Below are positions 10,940 through 24,475 of a stretch of DNA of 28,527 nt, piece by piece. The first letter of the stretch is position 1. Each line of letters begins with the position of its first letter. The stretch covers positions 1 to 28,527 of IMG/VR virus record IMGVR_UViG_3300033993_002101, one strand, 5' to 3'. The stretch comes from a virus. The position numbers were made by a program, and so were the translations under genes. The notes beneath the pieces were generated by a model that saw nothing but the letters and a program-made list of their open reading frames with translations, was not told the DNA's origin and made no database searches.

Positions 10940-11191
10940 TCAGAACGGGATTTCATCGTCAAGATCAGCCGGCGCCGGGCGTGGCGCGGCTGGCGCGCTG
11001 GCGCCATCCTTCGGCTTGACCGACAGGCTAAAGAACCGCCCGGAGCCGTCCTTGCGTTCCTTGATCCAGCCGGAAAGCCAATAATCGCGGCCTTCAACGT
11101 TGATCGAGCCGGAAAAATCCGGGTGCGTGTCTTGGGTCTTCCGGTCATTGCGCCCGAGAATGCCCTTGTTCGTGTTATCGTATCCGCTCAT
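10940..11191 (-). CDS. Small SSB-like protein with acidic IPF tail
   Basis: An 83-residue protein. The core has strands typical of a compact OB-like fold (FSGSINVEGRDYWLSGWIKE, then SGRFFSLSVKPKD), a pattern known from small phage proteins with 'HPDxxGxxxVxGxxYWLSGW'. It has a flexible Ala/Pro linker and ends in DLDDEIPF (76-83). This acidic tail closely resembles the C-terminal protein-interaction tip of bacterial SSB (DDDIPF). It overlaps the Sak4-like ATPase gene by ATGA. The likely role is binding of single-stranded DNA and recruitment of partners during annealing or recombination. OB fold membership is inferred, not proven. Confidence 0.65.
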   Translation of the reverse strand: MSGYDNTNKGILGRNDRKTQDTHPDFSGSINVEGRDYWLSGWIKERKDGSGRFFSLSVKPKDGASAPAAPRPAPADLDDEIPF

Positions 11192-12192
11192 TCTGCCGCT
11201 TCCTTCTCAGTGTTTTCCTGCACATGCGCCATGACGGCTTCCGTAAGCCGTGCCGAGATCGCCGCGCGAATGTCCTTAACGGTGTCGGGGTAACGCTCCC
11301 CCACCGCGCCAAAGGCGCCGGCGTTCGCATCGGCCCAGGCGCGCAATGCGACGGGATCATGCGCCAGAAGGCCGATTGCCTTCATCGCGGCGCGGTGCCA
11401 CAGTTCCACGGTGGCGATTGAATGTTCCTTGGCGTTCGGATCAATCAGCCGCAAAGGCGCTTCTGCGGGCCGTGCGGCGGGCGCTGGGGCGGGTGCGGGC
11501 GCATCGGCACCGCTTTCCAGCCATTGTAGCAATTGCCGCCCTGTGCCTTCCGTAATGGTGTCGCGCCAGCCGTCGAATAGCGTGGTGCGGTCCTTGGAAG
11601 CCGCCGCCTTGTGGTCAATGTCAATGTCCATAACCACAGTAAATTCGTATTCCACCCCGTCACGCTGGACCGGCGCCAGCCCGACCTTGCGCGGCACCTG
11701 CTTACCCTTTTCATTGACCTCCAGCACGTATTCCGTCTTGACGCGCATGGTCACGATGATGTGGCACCGGCTGGAAAGCAGCGCTTCCACAAGCGCGTTA
11801 TGATCCGGCGTCACCTCGCGCCATGCGGCGTAAGAATTGGTGCCGGGGCGATTGGCAATCTGGCCTTGCTTATCCAGCAAACCGCCCGCGCCTGCCCATG
11901 CGTGGGACAGGCTATCCACAATAATCGTATCGTATCCAGCACCTTCAAAGGCCGCGATGGCTTCACGATATTTGGAAACCGTGTAAGGCTTCTCCAGCGT
12001 GATCACGTCATATTCGCCAAGATTAGCATAAAGATCAGCGGAACCGTTTTCGGTATCAATAATGCCAGTCTTGCCGCCAATGCCAAACGCCAGCTTAAGC
12101 GCAGACATGGTTTTGCCGGACCCTGACGGGCCGATCAGCGCAAGGCGTAGCTTTGCCTTGCGTCGGGTTGCTTTGCGGATTTGCAGTGCCAT
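11188..12192 (-). CDS. RecA-like AAA ATPase, Sak4-type single-strand annealing/recombination protein
   Basis: A 334-residue protein with AAGGAAAAG before the ATG. Residues 21-28 are a Walker A loop (GPSGSGKT), and YDTIIVDSLSH (about 87-97) is Walker B with a following sensor-like region (CHIIVTMRVKTEY). The downstream block (KVGLAPVQRDGVEYEFTVVM) is characteristic of phage 'AAA family ATPase / Sak4' proteins (AAA_24 type). The C-terminal quarter after an Ala/Pro linker is a helical tail. Sak4-like ATPases work with an SSB partner in phage recombination, and the adjacent SSB-like gene fits this. The predicted site of action is DNA replication and repair intermediates. Confidence 0.8.
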   Translation of the reverse strand: MALQIRKATRRKAKLRLALIGPSGSGKTMSALKLAFGIGGKTGIIDTENGSADLYANLGEYDVITLEKPYTVSKYREAIAAFEGAGYDTIIVDSLSHAWAGAGGLLDKQGQIANRPGTNSYAAWREVTPDHNALVEALLSSRCHIIVTMRVKTEYVLEVNEKGKQVPRKVGLAPVQRDGVEYEFTVVMDIDIDHKAAASKDRTTLFDGWRDTITEGTGRQLLQWLESGADAPAPAPAPAARPAEAPLRLIDPNAKEHSIATVELWHRAAMKAIGLLAHDPVALRAWADANAGAFGAVGERYPDTVKDIRAAISARLTEAVMAHVQENTEKEAAE

Positions 12193-17994: not shown

Positions 17995-18146
17995 ACGATG
18001 AACCCGTCCCATCCACCCTAGAAGAGCGCCTTGCCTTTTACCAGCGCTTCGCCCGCAACCTTGCCGAGCGCGTGCCTGACCCGGTAGAGGACGCCGAGCG
18101 CGAGGCGCATTTTGAGACGTGGAAGCGAAAAGGCGCCAAGAAATGA
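17991..18146 (+). CDS. 51-residue charged helical protein
   Basis: A short frame from ATG 17991 to TGA 18144-18146, overlapping both the nuclease gene and the primase gene by ATGA. The sequence is one or two charged helices (STLEERLAFYQRFARNLAER, then EDAEREAHFETWKRKGAKK). No family is recognised. It is accepted because of its overlaps and because leaving it out would leave 148 bases empty in a gap-free operon. Possibly a co-factor of the primase. Confidence 0.6.
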   Translation: MNDEPVPSTLEERLAFYQRFARNLAERVPDPVEDAEREAHFETWKRKGAKK

Positions 18147-20149
18147 GCCTAACCCAAAGCGCCCTATGGCTTGTTCAGGAAATGCGCCTGCCGGTCTTTG
18201 CCTGCGGGCATGACAAGCGCCCGGTGACGCAGCACGGGTTCCAAGACGCCACGCATGACGCGGTGGAAATTCAGCGCCAGTTTGCCAGCCCAGGCGCGGC
18301 CATGATCGGCGTCCCAACCGGGGACACGTCCGGGTTCTTTTGCCTTGACCTTGACGTGAAGAACGGCGGCGGCGGGCTGGAATGGCTTGCGGCAAACCAG
18401 CACAGGCTACCGGACACGCGCCGACACAAGACACGCTCCGGCGGGGTTCACCTGCTTTTCGCCATGCCCCAGGGCCGGATCATCCGCAACAGCGCGGGCC
18501 GGATCGCGGCTGGCGTGGATGTGCGCGGCAACGGCGGCTATATTATCGCGCCACCCTCCCCCGGCTATCTGGTGGATGAAGCCATGGCGCCCGCGCCTGC
18601 GCCGGCATGGTTGCTGGATCTGATAGACCCGCCCAAGGCGCCAGAAGCCCCGCGCCCAGCACCCGCGCCCCGCCAATCCGGCGACGGCACGCGCTACGGC
18701 ATGACCGCCCTAGACAATGAGTGCCAGGCCATCCTAAGCGCGGCGGACGGCGCCAAGCATGACACCCTAAACCGCGCGGCGTTTAGCATCGGCGGACTGG
18801 TTGCGGCAGGCGAATTGATTGAGGGCCCAGCCTTCGCCGCGCTGGCATCGGCGCTGGCAGGCATCCGGCACCGCTGCGAGGATTACCCGGCGGCGCAGAA
18901 AACCCTTGCCGGCGCATTCCGCGCAGGCATGGCCAAGCCCCGCGAAGCCCCGCCGCGCTTGGTCCGCCGCATTGTGGAAGAATACCGCGAGACGCGCCCG
19001 GAGCCGCCGCCCAGAGACGCGCCGCCAGACCATTGGAGCGCGGAACCGGATCCGGACGTAGGTCTAGAGCCTGAAAAGGTGGCGCCCAACATCAAGCTTA
19101 CCGGCCTGCCGCTGATCTATTTCCAGGACGTGAAGCCTGCCCTGAAATCTGAGGATTTCATCGAGGGCTTGCTGATCAAGGCCGCCATGTCCGTAACCTA
19201 TGGGCCCTCAAATTGCGGCAAGACGTTCTTCATGGCGGACCTGGCGCTTCATGTCGCGCTTGGGCTGGAATGGCGCGGGCGTGAGGTGGAACGCGCAGGC
19301 GTGATCTACTGCGCCATGGAAGGCGCCCACGGCATTCAGAACCGCGTGGCAGCCTTCGCCCTGACGTGCGGCCTGGCAGGGCAGGAAATCCCCTTTGCCA
19401 TTATCCCGGTGGCGTTAAACTTGCTGGACCTGGAAGCGGACACGTCCCGGCTGATAGACGCCATAGCCGAGGCCGCCGCCCGCATGGCGATCCCGGTCGG
19501 GCTTGTGGTCATGGATACCCTGAGCCGCGCCATGGCCGGGGGCAATGAAAACTCCCCGGAGGATATGGGCGCCCTGGTGGCCAATTCCGACCGTATCCGG
19601 CAGGCAACCGGCGCGCATGTGGCGTGGATACACCACAGCGGCAAAGACCAAGCCCAAGGCGCCCGAGGCCATAGCCTGCTGCGCGCCGCAACCGATACCG
19701 AGATCGAGATCAGCCGCGCCGACAATGACAGCCCGTCAATCGCCCGCGTCACCAAGCAGCGCGAGCTGGAGATCGACGGGGTTTTCGGCTTCACGCTCAA
19801 GCGGGTGGAATTGGGCCTAAACCATCGCGGCAAGCCGGTCACGTCATGCGTGGTGGAACCTACCGATGACCGCCCCGCCAAGCCGCGCGTTAGCCTGACC
19901 AATGGCGAGGCCATGGCGCTACGCATCCTGCATGACGTGATGGCCACACAGCCCTGCCCGGTGCCCTACCAGGCCGCCCAAGCGGGCGTGACCGTCGCCA
20001 CAAGCAAGCACGCATGGCGCGAGACATTCTTCGCGCGTTCAACCGCTGATAGCCATGAGGCGAAGAAGAAAGCGTTTAACCGGGCAGCCGATGGGCTTGC
20101 CCAAAAGAGCCAAATAGGGGTGCATCATGACACGGTTTGGGCAGTCTGA
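18143..20149 (+). CDS. Bifunctional prim-pol primase / RepA-like replicative helicase
   Basis: A 668-residue protein; the ATG at 18143 lies in an ATGA overlap (a GTG at 18119 is less likely). Residues about 10-160 are a prim-pol (AEP-type) domain with LDLDVKNGGGG (68-78) and the TRSGGVHLLF strand (97-106). A Pro/Ala linker and a helical middle region (about 180-310) follow. Residues about 320-560 are a RepA/KaiC-like hexameric helicase ATPase, with Walker A GPSNCGKT (354-361), Walker B LVVMDT (454-459) and VAWIHHSGKD (493-502). It is the central replication enzyme of the phage, priming and unwinding. The CGGGACA repeat array directly downstream is a plausible place for it to act. Confidence 0.9.
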   Translation: MSLTQSALWLVQEMRLPVFACGHDKRPVTQHGFQDATHDAVEIQRQFASPGAAMIGVPTGDTSGFFCLDLDVKNGGGGLEWLAANQHRLPDTRRHKTRSGGVHLLFAMPQGRIIRNSAGRIAAGVDVRGNGGYIIAPPSPGYLVDEAMAPAPAPAWLLDLIDPPKAPEAPRPAPAPRQSGDGTRYGMTALDNECQAILSAADGAKHDTLNRAAFSIGGLVAAGELIEGPAFAALASALAGIRHRCEDYPAAQKTLAGAFRAGMAKPREAPPRLVRRIVEEYRETRPEPPPRDAPPDHWSAEPDPDVGLEPEKVAPNIKLTGLPLIYFQDVKPALKSEDFIEGLLIKAAMSVTYGPSNCGKTFFMADLALHVALGLEWRGREVERAGVIYCAMEGAHGIQNRVAAFALTCGLAGQEIPFAIIPVALNLLDLEADTSRLIDAIAEAAARMAIPVGLVVMDTLSRAMAGGNENSPEDMGALVANSDRIRQATGAHVAWIHHSGKDQAQGARGHSLLRAATDTEIEISRADNDSPSIARVTKQRELEIDGVFGFTLKRVELGLNHRGKPVTSCVVEPTDDRPAKPRVSLTNGEAMALRILHDVMATQPCPVPYQAAQAGVTVATSKHAWRETFFARSTADSHEAKKKAFNRAADGLAQKSQIGVHHDTVWAV

Positions 20150-20588
20150 AATGGTAATCGCGCGCAACCAACTATCACTTTTTACCCCTGAAACTAGCCG
20201 GGACATACCGGGACAAATCGGGACAAATCGGGACAATTACCCCCCGGCTGATGCCCCGCAGTCGGGACAATCTGGAACCCCCCCCCTAAAGGGGGGGGTC
20301 CAATGTCCCGCCGGGACAGGGGTGGGAATGTCCCGGTCCCGTCCCGTCCCGGCTGAAGGAATTACAAAACGAAACGAAAGCGCAGATGGCGATTTTGACC
20401 CCGCCCGCAATTACCCGACCCCGGCCAGCATCAAGGCGGCCTTCGACGCATGGGACGCGGAACATGCGGCATGGGTGGCAGCCGGGATGAACGGCGATTA
20501 CCCGCACCCGCCTGCCGGCCTGACTTCCGCCATTGCCTCCAGGCTGATCCCGCGCCGCACCCCCCAGCACGGCAAGCGGTGGCGCTGA
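20127..20588 (+). CDS. Protein with N-terminal beta-clamp motif, coding region spans the CGGGACA array
   Basis: A 153-residue protein if started at the ATG with AGGGGTG upstream; the ATG at 20151, just after the primase stop, is an alternative. QLSLF at residues 15-19 is a perfect sliding-clamp binding motif, near an end of the protein as usual. Residues about 20-75 are low-complexity because they are encoded by the repeat array. The C-terminal 60 residues look folded (TPASIKAAFDAWDAEHAAWV). It may be a replication accessory factor that contacts the host clamp. Function is otherwise unknown, and the repeat-coded part may matter as DNA rather than as protein. Confidence 0.6.
   Translation: MTRFGQSEMVIARNQLSLFTPETSRDIPGQIGTNRDNYPPADAPQSGQSGTPPLKGGVQCPAGTGVGMSRSRPVPAEGITKRNESADGDFDPARNYPTPASIKAAFDAWDAEHAAWVAAGMNGDYPHPPAGLTSAIASRLIPRRTPQHGKRWR
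20199..20351 (+). repeat. CGGGACA repeat array, candidate replication origin
   Basis: CGGGACA occurs at 20199, 20209, 20219 and 20229 (exact 10-base steps), again at 20263 and 20312. The reverse complement occurs at 20304 and 20329, and GTCCC repeats every 5 bases at 20336, 20341 and 20346. 20304-20318 is a perfect palindrome (7-1-7). A C-run/G-run hairpin (20278-20298) lies in the middle. Spacing by one helical turn suggests iteron-like protein binding sites on one DNA face, right after the primase-helicase gene. Confidence 0.65.
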
Positions 20589-20776
20589 TGGACCTAACTC
20601 CTGCCCAAGTGGCGCGTGCCCATGCCGATGATGCGCTTGCCGAGGACTGTTTGCGCCGCGCCAGAGCCGCCCAGGACGGCTTGCAGCATCCGAAGCTAGA
20701 CCAGCCTAGCCGGGAATACCTGGAAGGGCTTGTAGCGCGGTTTGAAGCCCTTGCGGCGCGGTTGAAAGGAAGCTAG
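20588..20776 (+). CDS. Small helical protein, unknown function
   Basis: A 62-residue protein started at the ATG of TGATG after the preceding gene; the longer frame to 20450 is rejected as overlap. It is helical and charged (ARAHADDALAEDCLRRARAAQ, then REYLEGLVARFEALAARL). It resembles common short phage helical proteins but no specific family is recognised. AGGA near its end provides the ribosome site of the next gene. Confidence 0.6.
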   Translation: MDLTPAQVARAHADDALAEDCLRRARAAQDGLQHPKLDQPSREYLEGLVARFEALAARLKGS

Positions 20777-20778
20777 AC

Positions 20779-21276
20779 ATGAATGGAGCCCTTGCCATGA
20801 CGAAGCCGAAACCCGCGCGCCCGCGCGGGCGCCCTGAAAAGCCCATAACCTTGGATTTCGGCCCTGCCCAGCGCTTGGCCAATGGCACGGCCTGGCTTGC
20901 TTACCGGGCGGACCCTGAAAACCCTGGGCGCCCTTCTGTGCGGTCAGCAGGCGCCAAGGTGATCTATCACCAGCTTTGGCTTGCCGGGCACCTGACGGAC
21001 GAACAGCACGAGGCGGCAGATCGCTACCTGACGCGGCTGGAGGTGGCGAGCGGCGCCAAGGTGGACACGCGCGGGCATGGGGCGGCAAGCTATGGCCCGA
21101 CGGCTGCCCAGGTGGCGGCATTGGCGGACTTGCGGATAGCTGACGCGGCGATAGGGCCGGCGCCGCTTGTGGCAGGGGTGCGGACGGTCATCGGCTGGAA
21201 TATTTGGCCGCCGGATTTGCAGGTGCGGGATTTCAAAGGCGCGATGCAGCGCGTGGCGGATGTTTGGGGGATGTGA
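20779..21276 (+). CDS. Unknown protein at the end of the replication operon; possible late regulator
   Basis: A 165-residue protein with AAGGAAGC upstream of the ATG; a second ATG at 20797 is possible. It opens with a basic Pro/Arg-rich tail (KPKPARPRGRPEKPITLDFG), resembling an AT-hook-like RGRP element. A helical core follows (YHQLWLAGHLTDEQHEAADR, then TAAQVAALADLRIADAAIG) and a C-terminal helix (RDFKGAMQRVADVWGM). No family is recognised. Position before the late transcription start is where many phages keep their late activator or Q-type antiterminator; this is only a positional hint. Confidence 0.6.
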   Translation: MNGALAMTKPKPARPRGRPEKPITLDFGPAQRLANGTAWLAYRADPENPGRPSVRSAGAKVIYHQLWLAGHLTDEQHEAADRYLTRLEVASGAKVDTRGHGAASYGPTAAQVAALADLRIADAAIGPAPLVAGVRTVIGWNIWPPDLQVRDFKGAMQRVADVWGM

Positions 21277-23060: not shown

Positions 23061-24475
23061 TCTGGCGCCCCCAGGCAGGCCCGCAAACGGCGCTGCTGAC
23101 TTGCCCGGTCTTTGAGGTTTTCTTCGGCGGGGCACGCGGCGGCGGCAAGACTGACGGCATGTTGGGCGAATGGGCCGTTCATGCGGATCGATACGGCAAG
23201 CAGGCGATAGGCCTGATGGTCCGCCGCACGCGGACGGAATTGCAAGAGACATTCGAGCGGGCGCGGGCGTTGTTCACACCATTGGGCGCGCAATTCACCA
23301 GCGTCCCCATGCGGTGCGTGATGCCCGGCGGGGCAAGACTGACCTTCGCCTATCTTGAGCGCGACGCGGACGCCGAGAGTTACCAGGGCCACAGTTACAC
23401 GCGGGTTTATGTCGAGGAAGCGGGCAACTTCCCCAGCCCGGCGCCGATCTTGAAGCTGTTTGCCACGTTGCGCTCTGGTTCTGGCGTCCCGTGCCGAATA
23501 CGCCTAACGGGCAATCCCGGCGGGCCTGGGCATCAATGGGTGAGGGCGCGCTACATAGACCCGGAGCCGATGGGCTGGCGCGTCATGAAGGACGATGTGA
23601 GCGGCCTGGAGCGGGTCTATATCCCGTCCCGCGTTGGCGATAATCGGCACCTTGGCGCGGATTATGTAGCGCGACTGCGGGCGAGCGGTGCGCCGCAATT
23701 GGTAAAGGCTTGGCTTGACGGCGATTGGTCGGTCATCGCCGGGGCGTTCTTCCCCGAGTTTGATTTACGCCGGCACGTCATCGCGCCGCGTGAATTGCCC
23801 GAGCATTGGTTCCGGTTCCGGTCGCTGGATTGGGGCAGCGCGAAGCCTTTTAGCGTAGGCTGGTGGGCCGTATCGGACGGCGAATTGGCGGACATCCCGC
23901 GCGGTGCGCTGGTGCGATACCGGGAATGGTATGGCAGCACTGGCAAGCCAAATGAAGGCTTGAAGATGACCGCTGAAAAGGTGGCAGAGGGTATCGCGCA
24001 ACGTGAGGCGCGCGACCCTAAGCCCGAGAATGGCCTTCATGGCGTTGCCGATCCGGCCATCTTTTCAAGCGACGGCGGCCCATCCATTGCCGAGCGCATG
24101 GCGCGCGCTGCAAAAGTGTTTTTCCGCCCTGCCGATAATGCCCGCGTTGCGCGTCAAGGCGCGCTTGGCGGGTGGGACCAAGTTCGGGCCAGGCTAGAAG
24201 GCGACGAAACCGGGCCGGGTTTGCTGATTTTCAGCACATGCCGCGACCTGATCCGCACATTGCCGGCGTTGCAGCACGATCCGGACCGCCCGGAAGATGT
24301 GGACAGCGACGGTGAAGATCACGCGCCCGACGAAGCGCGTTACGCTTGCATGAGCCGACCATGGGTGCGGCAAAAGCCCGTGCATCAGCCGGGCGCGATT
24401 GTATCGGTTGGCGCCAGCAACAGCGCCACCTTCAACGACTTGTGGAAAACCGCGCCGCGCGCTTCGCGGTGGTGA
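23030..24475 (+). CDS. terL: Terminase large subunit (TerL)
   Basis: A 481-residue protein; the GTG at 23030 is the best in-frame start. Walker A is GGARGGGKT (33-41), Walker B VYVEEA (126-131), a coupling motif is LTGNPGG (159-165), and the nuclease domain has the first metal-binding Asp in RSLDWGSAKP (D267), then GVADPAI and the C-terminal DEARYACMSRP. The length and motif order fit a Terminase_6/GpA-like packaging ATPase-nuclease. It drives genome translocation into the prohead through the portal and cuts the concatemer; it works with the preceding TerS-like protein. Confidence 0.92.
   Translation: MGETASAPSVVWRPQAGPQTALLTCPVFEVFFGGARGGGKTDGMLGEWAVHADRYGKQAIGLMVRRTRTELQETFERARALFTPLGAQFTSVPMRCVMPGGARLTFAYLERDADAESYQGHSYTRVYVEEAGNFPSPAPILKLFATLRSGSGVPCRIRLTGNPGGPGHQWVRARYIDPEPMGWRVMKDDVSGLERVYIPSRVGDNRHLGADYVARLRASGAPQLVKAWLDGDWSVIAGAFFPEFDLRRHVIAPRELPEHWFRFRSLDWGSAKPFSVGWWAVSDGELADIPRGALVRYREWYGSTGKPNEGLKMTAEKVAEGIAQREARDPKPENGLHGVADPAIFSSDGGPSIAERMARAAKVFFRPADNARVARQGALGGWDQVRARLEGDETGPGLLIFSTCRDLIRTLPALQHDPDRPEDVDSDGEDHAPDEARYACMSRPWVRQKPVHQPGAIVSVGASNSATFNDLWKTAPRASRW

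Follow-up and report, generated by a model that had tools for sequence, protein, structure and literature searches.

A phased iteron array and hairpin behind a prim-pol-helicase gene as a candidate phage replication origin

What is the role of short repeats set at exact 10-base steps inside an open reading frame, immediately behind the gene for a fused primase-polymerase and helicase? The window analysed here is a single virus record of 28.5 kb, and an earlier note made from its sequence had proposed that such repeats form an origin of replication. Direct reading together with script counts located all of the elements described there (phased CGGGACA copies, inverted copies, a 15-base palindrome, a hairpin and GTCCC steps), and the array does lie within the open reading frame at 20127-20588. 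The features discussed below are as follows.

18119-20149, plus strand: putative initiator gene encoding Prim-Pol, RepA-like helicase and winged-helix domains (Pfam, profile match, Foldseek)
19895-20146, plus strand: C-terminal winged-helix domain, about residues 593-676, the predicted iteron reader (AlphaFold2, fold matches, covariation)
20127-20588, plus strand: clade-specific open reading frame overlapping the array, with an N-terminal QLSLF (near and distant relatives compared)
20199-20235, plus strand: four CGGGACA iterons in exact 10-base steps, starting at 20199, 20209, 20219 and 20229 (script count, shuffles)
20263-20269, plus strand: fifth direct iteron (script count, relatives compared)
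20273-20302, no strand: central hairpin TGGAACCCCCCCCCTAAAGGGGGGGGTCCA, a C-run, TAAA and a G-run, with a CTWWAG-centred palindrome (sequence reading)
20304-20310, minus strand: inverted iteron adjoining the hairpin (script count, relatives compared)
20312-20318, plus strand: sixth direct iteron, found in part of the clade only (script count)
20329-20335, minus strand: second inverted iteron (script count, relatives compared)
20336-20350, minus strand: three GTCCC in 5-base steps (20336, 20341 and 20346), degenerate inverted iterons (script reading)

The array and its hairpin

The array begins 50 bp past the stop codon of the prim-pol-helicase gene (20147-20149). CGGGACA occurs 11 times in the window against an expectation of 3.27, and eight of these copies fall in the array, in a stretch of 137 bases. 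When positions 20150-20400 were shuffled 5000 times with dinucleotides preserved, no shuffle contained a hexamer recurring three or more times at 10-base steps, as against the four copies observed, and GGGACA or its complement TGTCCC, present eight times, averaged 0.25 copies with a maximum of three. The inverted iteron next to the hairpin and the sixth direct iteron together make a perfect 15-base inverted repeat, TGTCCCG-C-CGGGACA, at 20304-20318, and the single strand from 20196 to 20356 folds at -53.6 kcal/mol (z -6.2). Comparison of 23 relatives shows that copies 2-4 of the 10-base-step block are almost invariant, as is the central hairpin, the outer arms of which occur in two matching versions; the GTCCC steps are poorly conserved.

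Iteron-type origins are marked by several short direct repeats in phase, together with inverted copies, and both are present here. DnaA boxes and AT-rich elements are common but non-defining traits of such origins; the whole window has a single DnaA box match, at 24441 and thus not near the array, and no clear AT-rich opening element was seen in the sequence beside it. The hairpin was also considered as a transcription terminator, a reading that we rejected because no T-run lies behind it. Elsewhere in the window, a minus-strand gene block at ∼9-14 kb includes a gene for an AAA_24 / Sak4-like annealing protein (11188-12192, minus strand).

Arrays behind the helicase genes of relatives

The product of 18119-20149 matches the Pfam domains Prim-Pol (PF09250, E 4e-30) and AAA_25 (E 6e-34), its profile matches RSF1010 RepA (1g8y, E 9e-12), and the top Foldseek match to its predicted structure is again RepA (1nlf, E 2e-10), so that it carries a RecA-fold helicase domain of the RSF1010 RepA family. 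The C-terminal ∼85 residues are modelled by AlphaFold2 with a pLDDT of about 93-98 as helices followed by a beta hairpin, and they match winged helices including the MCM C-terminus, ORC and CAP-type domains. The winged helix is a common fold, and these matches therefore give the fold and not the function. With a recognition helix at residues 646-662, the predicted domain would provide the DNA-binding part of an initiator, for which covariation (see below) suggests sequence specificity.

We assembled 26 non-redundant members of this family, the window included, choosing relatives by protein and not by repeat, and compared the count of a repeated hexamer in the 400 bp past the stop codon with 300 shuffles. 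A repeated hexamer lies behind the gene in 25 of the 26, with up to 16 copies. It is clear in 20 members, where no shuffle reached the count, and weak in five (L333, L360, L369, L370 and L373), with counts of 5-6 that were reached by 1-24 of the 300 shuffles; Caulobacter phage GB2A (L293) is the only member of the 26 with no downstream array. Counts in the gene body and in upstream DNA are 2-5, with the exception of the upstream DNA of L374 (10). The earlier note had proposed a search for phased repeats behind the prim-pol genes of relatives, with loss of the repeats beside a retained protein as the result that would speak against an origin. The repeats were found, often with a changed hexamer, and the relatives have retained them along with the protein.

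The array hexamers differ from member to member (GGGACA, CGGACA, CAGACA, GAGACA, GTGACA, GTAACA, GCAACA, CCGACA, ATCACA, ACTACA and GAAACA) and in most members follow the pattern NNNACA, in which NNN varies and the ending ACA is shared. A CTWWAG-centred hairpin follows the stop codon in 22 of 37 members, being absent or imperfect in the other ∼15, and essentially never occurs upstream or in the gene body; examples of such palindromes flanked by arrays are CCCCCTTTAGGGGG, ACACACCTATAGGTGTGT and AAACCCTTTAGGGTTT. We note two variations on this arrangement. L360 lacks a strong iteron array and has instead a perfect inverted repeat with a 19-base stem around TCAC, ∼199 bases past the helicase stop codon. 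In one subfamily (L024, L088 and L296) a DnaA-box-like TGTGGATAA, absent from the window, lies a few dozen bases past the last inverted iteron.

The association is also seen when the repeat is the starting point. Virus contigs scanned for GGGACA three times over at 10-base steps contained at least 119 such loci, and a prim-pol/helicase relative lies within 700 bp of 47 of 119, compared to two of 89 loci of the control repeat GAGCAG (Fisher p about 1e-11), a control that is non-ideal in that it encodes common E/Q repeats, albeit usable for comparing neighbours. In these loci the array typically begins between a few and ∼50 bases behind the prim-pol/helicase stop codon. When genome contigs were scanned for four copies of GGGACA, 79 scattered matches were obtained, and some of these are perfect tandem repeats. 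Siting beside the cognate initiator gene and conservation across relatives are further marks of an iteron-type origin, and the array has both if the helicase is its initiator.

GGGACA arrays were also observed in other settings. Some adjoin unrelated replication proteins, namely VapE-type helicases (L007, L009, L037 and L040), a DUF927 protein with a Cch HTH (L086), a PriCT primase (L076) and a protein with a DnaA_C domain (L061), in some cases again directly behind the gene; these may reflect either convergence or a shared reader. At L001, L013, L018, L033, L041 and L092 the array is inside a small gene (∼210-400 aa), recalling the lambda ori inside O; the gene is of a replication type in some loci, and the single such gene searched against Pfam and PHROG matched neither. 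Eight loci (L012, L028, L030, L043, L046, L058, L072 and L074) have symmetrical blocks of inverted and direct GGGACA copies with a constant outer spacing of 51 bases, overlapping a PriCT-2 / prim-pol-helicase gene at its 3' end.

Circular plasmid records that contain phage genes and a RepA-like helicase gene carry an array at the same site, behind the helicase gene: CGGACA in pMRAD08, GCAACA with ACAACCCTATAGGGTTGT in a Methylobacterium currus plasmid, a GCGGCA-type repeat in Klebsiella pKp_Goe_795-4, and GCGGAA in Caenibius p1. The pMRAD08 helicase matches AAA_25 only, with no Prim-Pol domain detected, although the array still lies behind it. In the three records examined in full, the PLSDB annotation, which is incomplete, shows no further obvious initiator of replication. 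Cumulative GC skew had been suggested as a check on the origin, but it gave no pointer to the array in two circular relatives, and because its extremes lie far from the array in both we set it aside as uninformative.

Iteron letters, the recognition helix and the reading of the array

Where the hexamer differs between relatives, the DNA-binding domain of the putative initiator differs too. Among 23 members chosen regardless of repeat, iteron distance correlates with recognition-helix distance, also when allowing for the helicase core (Mantel r 0.58, permutation p 0.0002, with ancestry partly corrected), as against r 0.09 (p 0.20) for helicase core distance in the same members. A column scan of core and C-terminus in 30 members, again with ancestry partly corrected, placed K651 highest, with iteron bases 2 and 3; this residue sits near the start of the recognition helix, and residues 648, 652 and 650 are also among the top columns. 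Column-base pairs above z 3 make up 14% in the winged helix and 1% in the helicase core. The iteron sequence thus appears to follow the recognition helix of the winged helix and not the helicase core.

A natural exchange provides a line of evidence that is independent of these covariation tests. On the left, both L334 and L335 agree with the window as far as 19050, and L334 agrees with it again on the right, from 20529; between these limits helicase, winged helix and array have been exchanged as one block, in which the repeat is ATCGGGG. The regions concerned are 3001-5360 in L334 and 2688-5050 in L335, and in them the Prim-Pol half is retained.

Taken together, these comparisons make it very probable that 20199-20350 is the replication origin of this phage and that its initiator is the prim-pol-helicase encoded directly upstream; the origin proposed in the earlier note is well supported by comparison, short of proof. 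Weighing against it are the GC skew of the two circular relatives, the lack of a DnaA box or obvious AT-rich element nearby, GB2A with no array, the five members with weak repeats, and the hairpins absent or imperfect in ∼15 of 37 members.

Other readings of the array have been weighed against an origin. It could be an operator at which the winged helix controls transcription, either of its own gene or of those downstream, with the origin elsewhere: a domain of the winged-helix type could act as a repressor, sites beside a protein's own gene are typical of autoregulation, and covariation of iteron and recognition helix would look identical. We consider this unlikely, as the array is behind and not before the gene, a search of 19900-20800 found no promoter-like site, ∼8-16 copies with a hairpin would be unusual, the DNA-binding domain sits on a helicase, and the precedents with the same layout are origins (PMC7581432, PMC4234260).

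The repeats could instead be read single-stranded, as sites at which Prim-Pol starts primer synthesis and not as an array bound by the winged helix. A template preference is possible in prim-pols and related enzymes, as with the start-site preference of CCPol-MP of SCCmec (PMC7581432) and GTG for pRN1 (PMC4234260). However, of the two domains compared, it is the winged helix and not the helicase core with which the iteron sequence varies; arrays also lie behind members with no detected Prim-Pol (pMRAD08, whose protein matches AAA_25 only, is one example), and the presence of copies on both strands fits binding to duplex DNA, all of which makes this reading highly improbable. Still more doubtful is a partition, incompatibility or packaging site. 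Repeat arrays also fill such roles in plasmids and phages, but this one is tied to the helicase gene and swapped along with it, and no link to terminase or ParA genes was found.

Near relatives keep the overlapping open reading frame, 20127-20588, its indels being matched and its C-terminal half variable, and distant ones lack it; paired +1/-1 indels in the near relatives restore its frame, and it is probably translated. Its QLSLF start, which we take to resemble a beta-clamp-binding motif, reads QPSLF, DMPLF or ELPLF in relatives, which have several alternative C-terminal halves. Iteron bases at third codon positions are invariant in 12 of 14 cases compared to five of 36 elsewhere (p 4e-6, 23 near relatives), and in the same relatives invariance of iteron bases is as frequent at third positions as at the others; the 10-base step furthermore places successive copies in different reading frames. 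The earlier contention that coding pressure does not explain the phasing therefore holds, and since arrays are also kept in distant relatives without this frame, we conclude that it overlays a DNA signal that does not require it. Either the prim-pol-helicase or the QLSLF protein had been suggested to bind the array; the first is now favoured, and the second is an unlikely binder because its reading frame is limited to the nearest clade and the array persists in distant relatives that lack it. That the repeats are a mere by-product of a low-complexity linker encoded by this frame, as its retention in near relatives with frame-restoring paired +1/-1 indels might suggest, has a negligible likelihood, being refuted as a full explanation by the equal invariance of third positions and by arrays that persist with no such crossing frame, while the 10-base step shifts the reading frame between copies.

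A proposed origin design and its precedents

The array, where it lies, its conservation throughout the family, the domains of the protein (the C-terminal fold by prediction) and the tie between iteron and recognition helix are observations; from them we infer initiator binding, opening, priming and origin activity in the following form. The C-terminal winged helix would bind along one face of the DNA double helix, at the phased NNNACA repeats, which in the window read GGGACA, and also at the inverted iterons beyond the hairpin. Docked winged helices would then load RepA-type helicase rings to open the DNA, and at the CTWWAG hairpin, exposed or extruded, the fused Prim-Pol could assemble or prime, beginning synthesis at or near it.

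More broadly, we lean towards the view that the phages and phage-plasmids of one large, dispersed family have a common origin design: a RepA-like helicase, in some members preceded by Prim-Pol, that ends in a winged helix, followed by NNNACA iterons flanking a CTWWAG hairpin. Letters one to three of the iteron would be read by a few residues of the recognition helix (∼648-652) and would have diversified many times, moving between phages as one cassette with the helicase, possibly to prevent cross-talk among the origins of elements that share a host. For most phages the origin is unknown, and NNNACA repeats with a CTWWAG hairpin behind a RepA-like helicase gene would be a signature from which origins could be called by sequence in a large group. 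The pairs of iteron and recognition helix are a natural data set for the reading code of winged helices, and the findings favour modularity, with the helicase, the DNA reader and the origin moving as a unit. No published description of the array was found among open-licence papers, a search whose limits make it only weak evidence of novelty.

The phage lambda ori lies inside gene O, with iterons within coding sequence as in the window, although the initiators are unrelated. The alpha protein of satellite phage P4, likened here by protein make-up, also combines primase, helicase and a repeat-binding C-terminal winged helix in one phage protein, but its primase is of the Toprim type and its helicase of a different class (as reviewed in PMC4234260). 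RSF1010 has a helicase homologous to that of the window, and iterons and hairpins where its primase starts; its RepA, RepB' and RepC are three separate proteins and it has two ssi hairpins (as reviewed in PMC4234260), whereas in the window iteron reading, unwinding and priming are apparently fused and there is one CTWWAG hairpin.

ORF904 of the crenarchaeal plasmid pRN1 is close in layout, a single protein that combines prim-pol and helicase with a winged helix at the C-terminus; the pRN1 origin lies just 3' of its gene, and the minimal replicon of pRN1 needs a stem-loop there (PMC4234260). It differs in having an SF3 helicase and a stem-loop of ∼100 bases, with iterons absent according to its authors (PMC4234260), where the window has a RepA-like helicase and iterons. 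The C-terminal domains of SaPI Rep and SCCmec Cch2 recognise iterons that immediately follow the genes encoding these proteins (PMC7581432). Like the window, these systems place short iterons directly behind the gene of an initiator helicase, with inverted repeats nearby (PMC7581432), binding being predicted in our case. Their helicases are of the D5/AAA+ class (Cch/Rep-type) and their iterons are different, AAGTG for Cch2 (PMC7581432); the window protein matches AAA_25 and RSF1010 RepA instead, and has a RecA-fold RepA-like helicase, a fused Prim-Pol and NNNACA iterons. The system in the window is thus a departure from these precedents in the class of its helicase, in the fusion of three functions and in the design of its iterons.
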